Below, one piece after another: positions 41,165 through 46,420 of a stretch of 64,000 bases of DNA (position 1 is the first letter of the stretch; the number at the start of each line of letters is the position of its first letter). Source of the stretch: an uncultured Chitinophaga sp. (GTDB lineage: Bacteria > Bacteroidota > Bacteroidia > Chitinophagales > Chitinophagaceae); contig NZ_CAMLHC010000001.1 of assembly GCF_946479755.1 (NCBI RefSeq), forward strand, positions 682,001 to 746,000, written 5' to 3'. Below the pieces are notes generated by a model, which was given only the letters and a program-made list of their open reading frames with translations, made no database searches and was not told the DNA's origin. Both the position numbers and the translations under genes were made by a program.

Positions 41165-41644
41165 ATGAAAATGAAGGTTTGGTTTTTTGCATTGACTTTT
41201 CTTTATCTTTCCGTCGAAACAGTCCATGCCCAGCAATCGGAAGAGAAACGTATCAAAATTGAGCTGACGGTGAAAACAGCTAATGGCCAGGTGGCCGCGC
41301 TGATACGGTCTTTCACGGTTTCTTACAACAGGGCGTTGAACGCACCGCAGGATTCGGTCAACGGTAAACCTGTGCCAGCAGAATCACCCCGTGGACACTA
41401 CCTGTCGGCCGATTTTGAGAAGCAGAACATCCCGCTGTTACAGGCTTTTATGAAAAACAAGAAAGGCCTGGACGGGGAGATAACGGTAACAGATGCCTTC
41501 GGAAAGCTCCCCGGCCGCAAGATCATGTTTAAAGCTGCTGTACTGGAGACGATGAACGACCAGGTGACCGGCGACTATGGCAGCGCCTTTATGACGCTGA
41601 ATTGTGAGGAGCTGGTGATCGATGGCGTGAAACTTGAATATTAA
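41165..41644 (+). CDS. Exported protein with Hcp/TssD-like region
   Basis: A 159-residue protein with a signal peptide (MKMKVWFFALTFLYLSVETVHAQ). The mature part has a pattern like Bacteroidota type VI tube proteins: VSYNRALNAPQDSVNGKP in place of SYxxxRxxDxxGrP, then GHYLSADFEKQNIPLLQAFM, GEITVTDAFG, KIMFKAAVLETM and a closing MTLNCEELVIDGVK (usually F.ISa..I.i.G). The similarity is to motif order only. True tube proteins lack signal peptides, so an exported relative or a different fold is possible. It opens a run of immunity-type genes with 6 bp to the next. Confidence 0.55.
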   Translation: MKMKVWFFALTFLYLSVETVHAQQSEEKRIKIELTVKTANGQVAALIRSFTVSYNRALNAPQDSVNGKPVPAESPRGHYLSADFEKQNIPLLQAFMKNKKGLDGEITVTDAFGKLPGRKIMFKAAVLETMNDQVTGDYGSAFMTLNCEELVIDGVKLEY

Positions 41645-41650
41645 TAGAGA

Positions 41651-41992
41651 ATGAAAGAACCCACGGAATTTAAGTTCAGTGAACCCGCGTCGCTGGGCGT
41701 GTTCAGCACCAAAGGCTTTGTGGAAGGACTGTTGCCTGTATTGCGCGTTGTGCATGAGCATGACGGGTACTGGCAGTTCCTGACCGCAGAGTTTATGAAC
41801 GTAACGACGGAGGAGGAATTGGCACGTGCAGAAGAAGGGGCCGTGTTGCTTTGCCTGCGGGATGTGGTGGCATTGGACGACACGCTGAACGCACTGTTTG
41901 ACCTTCCATGCGGCGAGTTTGCCGACAGGAAGTTTATCGGAGACCAATGGGTAAGATCCGCATATGACGAAGAAGACGAATCAACAAGATAA
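41651..41992 (+). CDS. DUF2185-like protein, immunity type
   Basis: A 113-residue acidic protein. GVFSTKGFVEGLLPVLRVVHEHDGYW (in parts), QFLTAEFMNVTTEEE, and LNALFDLPCGEFADR follow the DUF2185 pattern, a domain of cytosolic proteins seen as immunity partners in polymorphic toxin loci. It has no signal peptide. It lies between the exported Hcp-like gene and a DMP19 gene with gaps of 6 and 10 bp, so they share a transcript. No cognate toxin gene is visible nearby. Confidence 0.65.
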   Translation: MKEPTEFKFSEPASLGVFSTKGFVEGLLPVLRVVHEHDGYWQFLTAEFMNVTTEEELARAEEGAVLLCLRDVVALDDTLNALFDLPCGEFADRKFIGDQWVRSAYDEEDESTR

Positions 41993-42002
41993 AAATCTAA
42001 AC

Positions 42003-42512
42003 ATGGAGTTTTTACCTACTATCAGCAAGGATGTAATAGCTGCTGCAGGCAACGATAACTGGGAGTTTATCTATGCGGTGCTTGAGCCGTATCAGGACGC
42101 TATTGAGGAAGCGGAGGACGAAGAAACGGTCCTTGACCAGCTAACCGACGATCAGCATACCCTGCTGATCTACGATGCGCTATATGGACAGGTTACCAAC
42201 GGCGGCTTTCTGCAGTTGATCCACAACGGCTACGGGCAGTTTGTCTTTGATGGCGTCTTTATAGAAGACCTTAGAAGATGGTCGATGAATGAGACAGCAG
42301 CCCTGCTGATAAAGGCTGAAGCCATTTATACGGAGCATAAAACGTTCCTGGAACAGGACCGCGAGCTCGAAGCGTTTTCCGCGCTTTATAAAGAGTTCAC
42401 GGCATTTGAACCGCTCGATGAAGCTTTTTATGATATCATGGATGCAGAGGTGTCCCGCTTCAGGAAATATATTGAAACGAATCTTGCTTCGTTTGTAAAG
42501 GTGACAGCGTAA
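42003..42512 (+). CDS. DMP19/DUF4375 family protein
   Basis: A 169-residue helical acidic protein. The segment LLIYDALYGQVTNGGFLQLIHNGYGQF is the DMP19 signature (Y-x-x-x-x-x-V-x-N-GG-F-x-Q). DMP19-like domains occur in DNA-mimic and immunity proteins. ATG at 42003 is chosen over 41964 because the latter overlaps the previous gene and lacks homology. It is the third gene of the immunity-type run. Confidence 0.82.
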   Translation: MEFLPTISKDVIAAAGNDNWEFIYAVLEPYQDAIEEAEDEETVLDQLTDDQHTLLIYDALYGQVTNGGFLQLIHNGYGQFVFDGVFIEDLRRWSMNETAALLIKAEAIYTEHKTFLEQDRELEAFSALYKEFTAFEPLDEAFYDIMDAEVSRFRKYIETNLASFVKVTA

Positions 42513-42537
42513 TATTGTATCCAATAAATAGTATCGT

Positions 42538-43185
42538 ATGGACATTGAACAATACAAACAGCAATTTGACGAGCAGGACGCAGTGGGATGGGACTGTATC
42601 GACGGCGCCATGGAAAAGCTTTACCCGGGGCAGGAACCGAAGCATTACGCCCCCGGTTTATACTATGCATTGGGTGGCGACAATCCCCTGGATGGCATCA
42701 GTGTTTATGAAAGCAGTCAGCAGGCCGATCATCTGCATTTTGTGACTTACGGTTTTTCTGAGCTTTATTATGACGAAGAGGCCGCAGGCGGAGAATTCAG
42801 CAAATTCGGCTTTGAGCTTACGTTCAGGCTGAAGAAAACCACAGCAGCAGAAGATCCTAACTGGGCCTGTAACCTGCTGCAGAATATTGCCAAGTACGTG
42901 TTCAGTTCCGGCAGATGGTTTGAGGAGTTTCATTTTATTCCGGCCAACGGACCTATCAGGCTGGAATATGATACGGACATTACGGCGCTGGCTTTTATAA
43001 AAGATCCGGAGCTGGGGACCATCACTACGCCGCACGGCGATGTCACTTTCCTGCAAATGGTCGGTATCACCACCAAAGAATACGAGTCCCTGATGCAGAA
43101 CCCCACCACAGCGGAATGCGAGCAACTGCTGCAACGGCTGCGGGCTAACAATCCACTGCTGATCACGGACCTCGACAGAAAATAA
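42538..43185 (+). CDS. Suppressor of fused (SUFU) domain protein
   Basis: A 215-residue protein: WDCIDGAMEKLYPGQEPKHYAP, LGGDNPLDGISVYES, HFVTYGFSELYYDEE, FGFELTFRL and VTFLQMVGITTKEYESL follow the order of bacterial SUFU-domain proteins. These are frequent immunity proteins in polymorphic toxin systems, although some have other roles. It ends the run and is followed by a strong terminator. Confidence 0.9.
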   Translation: MDIEQYKQQFDEQDAVGWDCIDGAMEKLYPGQEPKHYAPGLYYALGGDNPLDGISVYESSQQADHLHFVTYGFSELYYDEEAAGGEFSKFGFELTFRLKKTTAAEDPNWACNLLQNIAKYVFSSGRWFEEFHFIPANGPIRLEYDTDITALAFIKDPELGTITTPHGDVTFLQMVGITTKEYESLMQNPTTAECEQLLQRLRANNPLLITDLDRK

Positions 43186-43268: not shown

Positions 43269-43300
43269 GGTAAAACTTTTTCAAAAATCATCCCGTATCT
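43269..43300 (+). promoter_or_regulatory. ECF-type promoter of the sigma operon
   Basis: GGTAAAACTTTT (43269-43280), 11 bp, then CCCGTATCT (43292-43300). The same motif with the same spacing recurs at 44703-44734. AAC in the upstream block and CGT in the downstream block fit known ECF promoter logic. Transcription would start near 43306, about 20 nt before the TTG start codon. Confidence 0.75.
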
Positions 43301-43325
43301 AATACCATCTGAGTGGATAATAGTA

Positions 43326-43868
43326 TTGAAGGAGCTACCAACATATACCGAACAAGCGTTAATTACTGCGTTGAAACTACGCAGGGAGGAGGCTTTTAAC
43401 TACCTGTATGATCACTACGCCGCCGCTTTAAACGGCGTCATCCGCAACATCATCCCGGAAGAGCATACCGCAACGGACCTCTTACAGGAGGTATTCATTA
43501 AAATATGGCGACAGATAGACCATTATGATCCTGCGAGAGGCAGATTGTATACCTGGATGTTTACCATCGCAAGGACCGCGGCCATCGATCATGTGCGCAG
43601 CAAAAGCTGGCAAAACGGTCTACGGAACAGTGAACTGACCGAAGGTAGTCAGCAATTGCCCGATCAGCGTACACTTCCTTCCGATGAGCTTGGCTTACGC
43701 AACATTGTACATACACTGAAGGATGAGCATAAGGCGGTACTGGAACTATCTTACTTCCAGGGCTATACGCAGGAAGAAATCGCCCGGTTGATCAATATCC
43801 CTGTAAACACTGTCAAGACAAGAATCCGGGCCGCTATTTTGCAACTGAAAAAAAAGATAAAAAGGTAA
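43326..43868 (+). CDS. ECF RNA polymerase sigma factor
   Basis: A 180-residue sigma factor: region 2 with EEAFNYLYDHYAAALNGVI, TDLLQEVFIKIWRQIDHYDPARGRLYTWMFTIARTAAIDHVRS (in parts), and region 4 with VLELSYFQGYTQEEIARLINIPVNTVKTRI. It resembles the SigK/RpoE-like group that pairs with RskA-type anti-sigma factors, as here. There is no ATG or GTG in the open frame; TTG at 43326 is the best start, with TTG at 43371 as an alternative. The anti-sigma gene follows after 1 bp. It is probably autoregulated through the upstream ECF-type promoter. Confidence 0.92.
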   Translation: MKELPTYTEQALITALKLRREEAFNYLYDHYAAALNGVIRNIIPEEHTATDLLQEVFIKIWRQIDHYDPARGRLYTWMFTIARTAAIDHVRSKSWQNGLRNSELTEGSQQLPDQRTLPSDELGLRNIVHTLKDEHKAVLELSYFQGYTQEEIARLINIPVNTVKTRIRAAILQLKKKIKR

Positions 43869-43869
43869 C

Positions 43870-44667
43870 GTGGATATCAAGGCATACATAGAAAGTGGCA
43901 TCATTGAGAGCTATGTCTTAGGCTTAGCTACTCCGCAGGAAGCGGATGAGCTGCAGCGTTTAAGCCAGACCTATCCTGAAATAACAACAGCGGTTGCCAG
44001 GTGTGAGCAGTGGCTCCGCGAAACGTCAGACCGGTATGCCATACCGGTCCCGGAGACGCTGAAAGCGCAACTGCTTGTCCGCCTGGAGCATGAGTTTCAA
44101 CCAGTGGAGCAGGCACCTCCGGTGCGCCATTACCAGGGGGGACTGTTTAAATATGCTGCTGCCGTATTACTATTATTGCTCACTGTCAGCGGGTTACTGA
44201 ATGTGTATCTGTACAGCAGCTACCGGAAAGCCAGCCGTGATTTTGTACAGCTTCAATCCGCGACCGATATGATGGCTGCAGATAACAAAGCTTATCAGGC
44301 AAAGCTGGCCGTTCTTGAACAAGATCTGCGATTTATCACCGCACCCGGAACATTAAAAGTGATGCTGGCCGGTGTTGCTGGCAGAGAAGATCACCAGGTT
44401 ACCCTTTACTGGAACATACAAACGAAAGAAGTATCTCTGATAGCCAGTCGTCTGCCTGCCCCTGCGCCGGGAAAACAATATCAGTTATGGGCAATCGTTG
44501 ATGGGAAGCCTGTATCAGCAGGGCTGTTGACGCAACGCTGTGTCGATCTGTGCCTGTTGGCGCCCGTTCAACAGGCACAGGCATTTGCTATCACCCTCGA
44601 AAAGGCAGGTGGAAGCGCTGTGCCCACATTAGACCAGATGGTTGTCTCAGGTAAAGTGAATGCCTGA
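43870..44667 (+). CDS. RskA-type anti-sigma factor
   Basis: A 265-residue protein with GTG start. The N-terminal cytoplasmic part (YIESGIIESYVLGLATPQEADELQRL) is the anti-sigma zinc-finger-like helix region without metal ligands; one transmembrane helix is at about 94-115 (YAAAVLLLLLTVSGLLNVYLY); the periplasmic part is an RskA C-terminal domain (LPAPAPGKQYQLWAIVDGKPVSAG in parts, AFAITLEKAGGSAVPT). It should hold the ECF sigma at the membrane until a signal triggers release. Co-transcribed with the sigma gene. Confidence 0.93.
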   Translation: MDIKAYIESGIIESYVLGLATPQEADELQRLSQTYPEITTAVARCEQWLRETSDRYAIPVPETLKAQLLVRLEHEFQPVEQAPPVRHYQGGLFKYAAAVLLLLLTVSGLLNVYLYSSYRKASRDFVQLQSATDMMAADNKAYQAKLAVLEQDLRFITAPGTLKVMLAGVAGREDHQVTLYWNIQTKEVSLIASRLPAPAPGKQYQLWAIVDGKPVSAGLLTQRCVDLCLLAPVQQAQAFAITLEKAGGSAVPTLDQMVVSGKVNA

Positions 44668-44702
44668 ACGAAATTATTCTCTCCTTCGAAAAAAAATATG
44701 CA

Positions 44703-44734
44703 GGTCAAACTTTTAGTGGAAATATCCCGTACCT
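44703..44734 (+). promoter_or_regulatory. Second copy of the ECF-type promoter
   Basis: GGTCAAACTTTT (44703-44714), 11 bp, then CCCGTACCT (44726-44734). It matches the promoter-like motif upstream of the sigma gene at 11 of 12 and 8 of 9 positions with equal spacing. It drives the ferritin-like pair with a leader of about 60 nt. Confidence 0.75.
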
Positions 44735-44799: not shown

Positions 44800-45510
44800 A
44801 TGGAAAACTTACATCCGGTTTTGCCCCCTTCGGGCAATGATGACCGCTTATTGCCTGATAAGCTGGGCAGGAGGAAATTCCTTGCCTATTGTGGCCTGGC
44901 GGCATCGGCCGCTACACTGGCAGCTTGTAAAAAGGATAAGGATAACGACAACATGCCGCCTGCGGGCAGCATTGACCTGGGGACGGGAGACATCGGCATT
45001 CTCAATTACGCCTTTGCATTGGAACAACTGGAAGCGGCCTTCTACACGCAGGTGGTTGCGAGCCCTTATTCCGGAATAACTCCCGGTGAGCTTTCCTTGC
45101 TGACTGATATCCGGGACCATGAAGTAGCGCACCGTGAGTTTTTTAAAGCGGCACTGGGGACCAAAGCGATCGTGAACCTTGAGGTCAACTTCTCCGCTGT
45201 CAATTTTGGGAGCAGGGATAGTGTGCTGGGCACTGCCAAAGCCTTTGAAGATCTCGGTGTGTCTGCCTATAACGGCGCGGGGCAATTAATAACGGACCCT
45301 GCTTACCTGTTGCTGGCAGGAAAAATCGTGTCGGTGGAAGCGCGTCATGCTGCCCTTATTCGTGATCTGATCAGCAATGGTTCTTTTGCAGACAATACTG
45401 TCGTTAATGCCAACGGCCTGGATTTGGCGAGCGGGCCGGCTGATGTACTGATGGCAGCGAAACCATTTTTGAAATCAGTATTGTACGCAGGGAATTTGCC
45501 TACAGCGTAA
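44800..45510 (+). CDS. Ferritin-like domain protein, Tat-type lipoprotein
   Basis: A 236-residue protein. The N-terminus carries a twin-arginine motif (GRRKFL at 23-28), a hydrophobic stretch and a lipobox LAAC ending at C43, so it is probably exported folded and lipidated. The rest is a four-helix ferritin-like domain: ALEQLEAAFYT, IRDHEVAHREFF, FEDLGVSAYNG and VEARHAALIRD carry the acidic and His ligands. Tat export fits a protein that binds metal in the cytoplasm. Its transcription should depend on the neighbouring ECF sigma factor. Substrate or stress unknown. Confidence 0.88.
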   Translation: MENLHPVLPPSGNDDRLLPDKLGRRKFLAYCGLAASAATLAACKKDKDNDNMPPAGSIDLGTGDIGILNYAFALEQLEAAFYTQVVASPYSGITPGELSLLTDIRDHEVAHREFFKAALGTKAIVNLEVNFSAVNFGSRDSVLGTAKAFEDLGVSAYNGAGQLITDPAYLLLAGKIVSVEARHAALIRDLISNGSFADNTVVNANGLDLASGPADVLMAAKPFLKSVLYAGNLPTA

Positions 45511-46352
45511 TGCCTGTTTCATCTCAAAAAACTAAAGTCATGAACATACAAAATATCCTCTCGGAAATAGAACAGTTTGATCCTGAGGTGTACGACCGCT
45601 TTGACACCCGCCGGGCTGCGATGCGGCAGTTTAGCCGCTGGGGTGGCAGGCTGGCGCTGGCGGCGGTGCCTTTTGCACTGGGCAGCATGTTTAAAAAAGC
45701 ATATGGTCAGTCCTCCGGAGGCAGCATCACAGCCGTACTCAACTACGCCCTGACGCTCGAGTACCTGGAAGCGGAGTTTTATACGAAAGGCGCGGCTTCA
45801 GGGGTGGTGCCTGCCGGAACACCGGCAGTAGGCGCTATCAACACTATCCGCGATCATGAAAACGCTCACGTGGTTTTCCTGAAAAATACCCTCAATGCCC
45901 TGGGCGCCACGCCGGTGTCCAAACCGACCTTCGACTTTACCGCCGGTGGAGCATTCGCGAATATATTCACCAATTACGATACCTTTCTGGCGGTGGCACA
46001 GACTTTCGAAGATACCGGCGTAAGGGCATATAAAGGCAGAGCGGGAGAGCTGATCAGCAGCCATGCCGTGCTCACGGCAGCATTGCAGATACATTCCGTT
46101 GAGGCCAGGCACGCGTCTCACATCCGCCAGATGCGGAAAGCAAGAGGCGCTAATCTGAAGCCCTGGATTACCGGTAAAGACACAGGAGGAATAGGAGCGG
46201 CTGTGCAGGCCAGTTATAACGGCGAAGAACTAACGAGCCAGGCAGGCGTCGATATCACCAAATTTGTGAGTGCCAACGCTGCCAGCGAAAGTTTTGACGA
46301 GCCTCTTAACGCTGACCAGGTACTGGCTATCGTGAAACCTTTTATCGTATAA
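45510..46352 (+). CDS. Ferritin-like domain protein, second of pair
   Basis: A 280-residue protein; the start ATG overlaps the previous stop (TAATG), although ATG at 45540 is equally likely. The N-terminal region has RRAAMRQFSRWGGRLALAAVPFALG, a possible Tat-like or membrane-targeting segment. The ferritin-like core is LTLEYLEAEFYT, IRDHENAHVVFL, FEDTGVRAYKG and SVEARHASHIRQ, clearly paralogous to the upstream gene. It has an additional C-terminal part of about 60 residues. The two probably act together outside the cytoplasm. Confidence 0.88.
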   Translation: MPVSSQKTKVMNIQNILSEIEQFDPEVYDRFDTRRAAMRQFSRWGGRLALAAVPFALGSMFKKAYGQSSGGSITAVLNYALTLEYLEAEFYTKGAASGVVPAGTPAVGAINTIRDHENAHVVFLKNTLNALGATPVSKPTFDFTAGGAFANIFTNYDTFLAVAQTFEDTGVRAYKGRAGELISSHAVLTAALQIHSVEARHASHIRQMRKARGANLKPWITGKDTGGIGAAVQASYNGEELTSQAGVDITKFVSANAASESFDEPLNADQVLAIVKPFIV

Positions 46353-46380: not shown

Positions 46381-46420
46381 AAAGGGCTGCACCAAAAGTA
46401 AAACTTTTGGCCAGCCCTTT
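46381..46420. terminator. Bidirectional terminator
   Basis: AAAGGGCTG and AGCCCTTT, with CCAAAAGT and ACTTTTGG inside, make a long hairpin with a small asymmetric internal loop. It lies between the ferritin-like pair and the convergent DUF3823 gene. Confidence 0.85.

Follow-up and report, generated by a model that had tools for sequence, protein, structure and literature searches.

Autoregulated ECF sigma/anti-sigma modules carry a promoter of their own with AAC ... CGT-type blocks. Where the anti-sigma is of the RskA type the sigma factor is released by proteolysis, and SigK has a redox switch within the sigma factor itself. In Bacteroidetes a class I anti-sigma is found near only 6% of ECFs, as given in the part of PMC7406223 available to us. 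For the SigR/RsrA system of Streptomyces, the available sections of PMC5472188 describe a GTC start codon of sigR that keeps the sigma factor below its anti-sigma RsrA, and report more SigR with a TTG start than with ATG or GTG. Among ferritin-like proteins, tardigrade RvY_06210 (RvFeMP-1) and D. radiodurans DRB0118, which belong to one Pfam family (PF13668), have metabolite phosphatase activity and are linked to drying and radiation tolerance (PMC11616004, accessible text). In Caulobacter, a ferritin-like gene is lowered by iron limitation and in a fur mutant, and is not presented as an ECF target in the accessible portion of PMC3751524. We found no description of an ECF sigma factor that controls Ferritin_2 proteins in the literature searched, which left most subscription journals outside it.

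The locus analysed here lies in a 64 kb stretch of Chitinophaga DNA, referred to in full as the window, and consists of four genes on one strand, behind two promoter-like sites, that encode an ECF sigma factor, an RskA-type anti-sigma and two exported-looking proteins, FerA and FerB (Table 1). Its nearest solved relative on the sigma side is SigK of M. tuberculosis (4nqw; by sequence, E 5.6e-27), and the anti-sigma shares the RskA_C domain of the SigK/RskA system and has no HxxxCxxC zinc motif. The window differs from SigK/RskA in that a cysteine pair lies in the outer domain of the anti-sigma and none in the sigma factor, and in that the targets would be Ferritin_2 proteins; as the sigma factor contains no cysteine at all, a SigK-like redox switch within it cannot apply. 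Like autoregulated ECF modules generally, the window has sigma followed by anti-sigma as a gene pair; unlike them, it has an extended, genus-specific -35 block (AAACYTTT), a CGTAnnT block and a very small recognisable regulon. An unusual sigma start codon is common to the Streptomyces system (GTC) and the window (TTG), although here a TTG sigma start goes with a GTG anti-sigma start and the combination is kept across a family in another phylum. FerA and FerB have the Pfam family and a conserved Glu/His di-metal site in common with RvFeMP-1 and DRB0118, but they differ from these phosphatases in that they are predicted to be exported, are paired, leave no room for the IgG-like domain of RvFeMP-1 and have two ExxH motifs. 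Systems of this kind are known. In the literature searched we found no description of this particular member, nor of its promoter, cysteine pair or start-codon pattern.

Table 1. Features of the sigma and ferA-ferB operons, numbered by position in the window.
Feature	Position	Strand	Details
ECF-type promoter of the sigma operon	43269..43300	+	core AAAC 43273-43276, N17, CGTA 43294-43297, then TCT
ECF sigma factor, 180 aa, TTG start	43326..43868	+	Sigma70_r2 E 8.2e-19, Sigma70_r4 E 4e-12
Membrane anti-sigma, RskA type, 265 aa, GTG start	43870..44667	+	RskA_C E 8.1e-23
Codons of C224-x3-C228, conserved cysteine pair, predicted periplasmic domain	44539..44553	+	
Second ECF-type promoter, before ferA-ferB	44703..44734	+	core AAAC 44707-44710, N17, CGTA 44728-44731, then CCT
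FerA, Ferritin_2, twin-arginine signal R24 R25, lipobox Cys43	44800..45510	+	PF13668 E 1.5e-40
FerB, second Ferritin_2 protein, probable start 45540	45510..46352	+	PF13668 E 2.2e-39
Hairpin-like inverted repeat past ferB, possible terminator	46384..46417	+	read by eye

The site on the sigma side reads GGTAAAACTTTT-N11-CCCGTATCT and that on the ferA side GGTCAAACTTTT-N11-CCCGTACCT. The first-pass annotation had proposed that a bipartite site is duplicated here and that it fits ECF promoters through an AAC upstream and a CGT downstream; both proposals were confirmed, as the blocks agree at 11/12 and 8/9 positions with equal spacing and both sites contain the ECF-type core AAAC-N17-CGTA. The TTG of the sigma gene follows 25 nt after the end of the first site, and the ATG of ferA 65 nt after the end of the second. 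The N11 spacers are alike at only 4/11 positions and the flanks are no more similar than shuffled sequence, so that the two blocks alone are common to both sites. The loose core is not rare, with 17 matches in the window (both sites counted), and specificity resides in the extended motif: when up to three mismatches were allowed, the two sites were the only matches on either strand of the 64 kb, against a mean of 0.01 chance matches, and two matches occurred in 0/100 dinucleotide shuffles. Just upstream of the locus, at 41165-43185 of the window, are genes with DMP19 (PF14300) and SUFU (PF05076) domains, and the protein encoded ahead of them matches TssD/Hcp weakly, below the cut-off; this is possibly an effector/immunity neighbourhood.

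The sigma factor falls in the ECF class, since PF04542 and PF04545/PF08281 score above cut-off and sigma2 and sigma4 are its only domains; NCBIfam model TIGR02937 (95.7 bits, cut-off 42.9) was the sole model to reach its cut-off among the 25 listed of 113 NCBIfam matches. The anti-sigma scores 81.6 bits with RskA_C in Pfam (cut-off 29.4) and 92.8 bits with NCBIfam NF052375, slightly under the cut-off of 100. It can be seen in the structural model of the anti-sigma (mean pLDDT 89.2, pTM 0.52) that a helical N-terminal part (3-75) is followed by a long helix (93-156), within which the hydrophobic peak falls (96-114), and by a C-terminal beta-sandwich (161-262). This is the RskA-type layout of sigma-binding N-terminal helices, one transmembrane helix and an outer domain, with the topology as predicted from the model. 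No structural neighbour of the model was returned by Foldseek at E <= 0.001, and the sequence had no match in the PDB at E <= 0.1. We did note that genomes G001 and G002 contain two more RskA-linked ECF sigma operons in tandem (L189, L190, L194 and L195), which are paralogues of the window's module and whose anti-sigmas are without the cysteine pair.

The extended motif is highly selective within the genus. Searching three closely related Chitinophaga genomes of 8.0-8.7 Mb with AAACYTTT-N12-YCGTAYCT gave five exact matches, all of them sig or ferA sites (both in G001 and G002, ferA in G003, where the sig site has two mismatches to the genus form). When 60 genomes of the genus, taken from a larger set, were searched, 12 exact matches were found, spread over 8 genomes, whereas the reversed pattern gave 4; of the 12, 11 precede this sigma gene or ferA. 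The twelfth (L173 in G035) precedes a small exported-looking frame that is followed by a related ECF sigma gene (47%) and an RskA-like N-terminus. In the other 52/60 genomes, which have no exact match, the outer bases differ or the module is absent, and an exact-match search is strict enough that targets with weaker sites would escape it. Given that G001 has 111 Sigma70_r2 matches, such specificity is noteworthy. A larger regulon was not upheld: with up to two mismatches the three genomes gave 31, 34 and 31 matches against 32, 42 and 33 for the reversed control, so that any weaker extra targets are indistinguishable from chance. As far as it can be recognised by the extended motif, the regulon in the genus is therefore very small, essentially two operons. 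An identical two-mismatch motif does recur in two Chitinophaga genomes (L208 2451-2478 and L209 2560-2587), where it falls inside a 185-codon frame on the opposite strand. A frame of 461 codons begins 217 nt downstream of it in L208, so this may mark a further target or be due to chance. Other weaker sites lay inside frames (L211 and L213) or had no frame of at least 120 codons at them or within 300 nt downstream (L210 and L212).

Related genomes were then compared through the best 80 loci taken from 112 confirmed ferB relatives; the closest ferB genes in the searched genomes, those of Chitinophaga eiseniae and C. varians, are 92% identical to that of the window. The ferA gene adjoins ferB in 79/80 loci, the exception being L029, where ferB lies at the contig start. 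A sigma/anti-sigma pair occurs inside the fetched flank in at least 16/80 loci, a lower bound because some loci end at contig ends, and its layout varies: same-strand pairs lie upstream or, in L022, L027 and L057, downstream, the pair is divergent in L031 and L032, and in L071 it is found downstream on the opposite strand. The core AA[A/T]C-N15..18-CGTA was found upstream of 71/82 ferA genes, window included, compared with a shuffle mean of 3.4 (maximum 8) and with 8/367 other ORFs of the loci, and upstream of 8/17 sigma genes (shuffle mean 0.35). Its spacing before ferA is confined to 17 (59 genes) and 18 (13 genes), with none at 14-16. The form [A/G]A[A/T]C-N16..18-CGTA is present at 72/81 ferA genes when the window is left out (spacer 17 in 58, 18 in 14); the nine genes without it are in L012, L035, L036 (one), L053, L055, L067, L070, L073 (one) and L074. 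Loci L036 and L073 each have two tandem ferA-ferB pairs, one ferA per locus being without a recognisable site. As a held-out check, the third base after CGTA formed no part of the pattern, yet all 72/72 ferA genes with a site have one with T there (CGTAnnT), against 76/252 matches elsewhere in the same loci; among spacer-17 ferA matches it was present in 58/60. The consensus for the ferA promoter is AA[A/T]C[C/T]-N16-CGTAnnT.

Both sites are also kept where the two operons lie far apart. In 18/19 genomes without a sigma gene in the ferAB flank, the anti-sigma profile finds homologues, five of which (L141-L145) belong to the window's clade. Here sigma and ferB are separated by ~350, 412 and 311 kb on the same contig (G006, G007 and G010) or are on different contigs (G004 and G009), and the motif nevertheless precedes sigma in 4/5 (L141, L142, L144, L145) and ferA in 5/5. 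With a relaxed pattern, which also matches 17/363 control ORFs, 13/16 orthologous sigma genes, window included, have their own site, each with the T; the L008 (sig) and L026 (ferA) sites count only if G is allowed as the first base. The three sigma genes without a credible own site are L022 and L143, with no match, and L027, where the sole match is 233 nt upstream and is without the T; L022 and L027 sit just downstream of ferAB, but L143 does not. A sigma tree built by a quick method groups the window with L001-L003, L006, L026, L028, L141 and L142 (95% SH-aLRT); it leaves the deeper forks open, and the boundary of the orthologue set, in particular for L008, L009, L022, L027 and L143-L145, was therefore drawn partly by judgement from identity, the cysteine pair and the promoter. 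Among more distant sigma genes the AA[A/T]C-form site was found before 0/6 of those near ferAB (L031, L032, L037, L039, L057, L071), and 15/17 RskA-linked sigma genes with ferAB elsewhere in the genome were without a site, L147 and L151 having one. We conclude that the same motif stands before sigma and before its putative target in the window and its close relatives, and that this arrangement is absent from most of the more distant lineages.

These results bear directly on the model of the first-pass annotation, in which the sigma/RskA module is autoregulated and also turns on the ferritin-like pair. The model proposed that the motif would not be frequent genome-wide without relation to the sigma factor and that both sites would be conserved in related genomes; the searches described above bore it out on both counts, and motif specificity together with conservation in relatives supports the model. 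For the window and its clade the regulatory link is a well-supported prediction. The annotation also raised a possible envelope metal or redox stress response; the conserved cysteine pair of the anti-sigma would be compatible with this, but FerA's nearest characterised relatives are the metabolite phosphatases tied to drying and radiation tolerance.

The anti-sigma offers a candidate sensor. C224 and C228 are invariant (11/11), whereas a third cysteine, C45, is not conserved, and the pair is present in 14/16 orthologous anti-sigmas, having been lost in L144 and L145. It is absent from all six of the other RskA-type anti-sigmas near ferAB. Among the best 120 of 4244 anti-sigma homologues, 110 have C-x3-C (94) or C-x4-C (16), 2 are without a pair and 8 are without the anchor used, a count that is biased towards the pair as all rows of the query profile carry it. 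A conserved pair in the predicted outer domain, a sigma factor devoid of cysteine and an anti-sigma without HxxxCxxC make a periplasmic disulfide or metal switch at the C-x3-C possible.

The start codons of the two genes are unusual in the same way across the family. Of 46 distinct sigma sequences, 41 offer TTG alone at the fixed start position, which falls 22 to 32 codons ahead of the region 2 anchor, and 34/46 have no ATG or GTG from 40 to 13 codons before the anchor. The anti-sigma starts with GTG in 32/35 anchored sequences (14 more could not be anchored). By contrast, 80/81 ferA and 75/83 ferB frames contain an ATG ahead of the RR motif; for comparison, 48/298 long frames from these loci lack an ATG within the first 30 codons. 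Among the best 30 of the 111 sigma genes of G001, a survey in which a few frames look misplaced, an ATG occurs within 45 codons in 22, GTG or TTG alone in 6 and none of these in 2; the three members of the window's sigma family are the ones with TTG alone. Family-wide TTG and GTG starts suggest translational control of the sigma to anti-sigma ratio, and as TTG was not weak in Streptomyces sigR it need not be weak here.

Membership of FerA and FerB in Ferritin_2 is clear from their PF13668 scores of 139.0 and 135.2 bits (cut-off 24.7). Their candidate di-metal ligands are E75/E78, E108, H111, E150, E180 and H183 in FerA, invariant in 82/82, and E84/E87, E117, H120, E167, E198 and H201 in FerB, invariant in 83/83, so the classical Glu, ExxH, Glu, ExxH residues are all retained. 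FerA had been annotated at first pass as a Tat-type ferritin-like lipoprotein, and the assignment holds, with export predicted: RR-x-phi-phi is present in 81/82, Cys43 in 82/82 and the strict lipobox pattern in 70/82, although the NCBIfam TAT_signal_seq score (13.7 bits) is under the cut-off of 16.7. In FerB the RR is invariant (83/83), RR-x-phi-phi is found in only 18/83, and there is a hydrophobic stretch but no lipobox; its probable start is based on Met11, kept in 82/83. The FerA model (mean pLDDT 80.3) has four long helices, and its best fold match is RvY_06210 (Foldseek E 1.2e-05, query TM 0.60, 23% identity), whose chains are also the only solved sequence relatives of FerA at E <= 0.1 (E 4.1e-4).

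We propose that at rest the RskA-type anti-sigma, encoded by the next gene, would keep the sigma factor at the membrane. A periplasmic event on the outer beta-sandwich of the anti-sigma, possibly acting through the C-x3-C pair, would free the sigma factor, probably by proteolysis. RNA polymerase carrying the sigma factor would then transcribe its own operon, giving positive feedback, and ferA-ferB. The latter would yield two exported proteins, one of them a Tat-type lipoprotein, and both are predicted to be of the four-helix di-metal carboxylate type.

How the two sites are wired can be read in more than one way. We hold it highly probable that they are the promoters of one dedicated ECF sigma factor, which would serve its own operon and ferA-ferB. 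It is very improbable that they serve another ECF or a housekeeping sigma factor, or that they are a repeat left by local duplication. The 111 Sigma70_r2 matches of the close relative G001 would provide other candidates, and in many lineages the adjacent or best-matching sigma gene has no site, but exact matches cluster at sig and ferA, the motif is retained by widely separated loci, and the spacing and the extra T fit selection; a recent local duplication was rejected as the source of the repeat because the flanks are no more alike than shuffled sequence. A broader reading, which we regard as plausible while leaning against it, is that ferA-ferB is under ECF control in the Bacteroidota at large and that the sigma factor in charge has been swapped among paralogues, the window representing one lineage's dedicated autoregulated sigma. 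The ferA site is widespread while sigma genes with their own site fall mostly within a single part of the sigma tree, and in 8 genomes, chosen for a ferA site of the form AAAACC-N16-CGTATGT, this strict form was found a single time in each, at the ferAB locus and before no sigma gene (the reversed control gave 3 matches in 8). Against this, L031, L032 and L071 have a sigma gene of the Pedobacter-type clade adjoining ferAB, so that one broad sigma family may be at work in all of these lineages without autoregulation.

With the wiring to one dedicated sigma factor retained, the signal and the function of the exported pair can be weighed. That the signal is periplasmic redox or metal stress sensed through the C-x3/4-C pair, and that FerA and FerB act as an envelope ferroxidase or peroxidase, is a serious possibility to which we would give slightly less than an even chance. 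Conservation of the cysteine pair among orthologues and, on the biased profile, nearest homologues, its absence from the six other anti-sigmas near ferAB and the invariant Glu, ExxH, Glu, ExxH set all point this way, but L144 and L145 have lost the pair and yet keep both promoters. FerA and FerB may instead be metabolite phosphatases that remove nucleotides or related compounds once these are damaged, in a response to drying- or radiation-like damage, which seems to us rather unlikely. RvY_06210 is FerA's only solved relative at E <= 0.1 and its best fold match, and E75, E150 and G153 of FerA fit Glu76, Glu191 and Gly194 reported for DRB0118 in the available part of PMC11616004; an Asp needed in RvFeMP-1 is Gly at the matching spacing in FerA and FerB and is also Gly in the active DRB0118. 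However, identity is ~23%, the residue match is by spacing and not superposition, the full second ExxH in FerA and FerB is unlike the ligand set of the tardigrade enzyme, and an exported protein would meet few cytosolic nucleotides. The most inclusive picture is an envelope stress module of Bacteroidota with a self-feeding sigma factor and an exported di-metal pair, in which the outer C-x3-C of the anti-sigma would be a disulfide or metal switch, the fixed order of start codons (TTG for sigma, GTG for anti-sigma, mostly ATG for the targets) would keep the inhibitor in excess, and the exported pair would rid the envelope of reactive metal or of phosphometabolites that are oxidised or damaged; taken as a whole we consider it speculative and improbable.

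In this module the rare start codons of sigma and anti-sigma are conserved together, and Streptomyces provides, in the available part of PMC5472188, a precedent that such a codon can set the ratio of sigma to anti-sigma. The exported ferritin-like pair, widespread in Bacteroidota and as yet uncharacterised, now has a precise promoter and, in one clade, a predicted regulator, and these predictions make the signal and function of ferAB testable in culturable Chitinophaga or Pedobacter.
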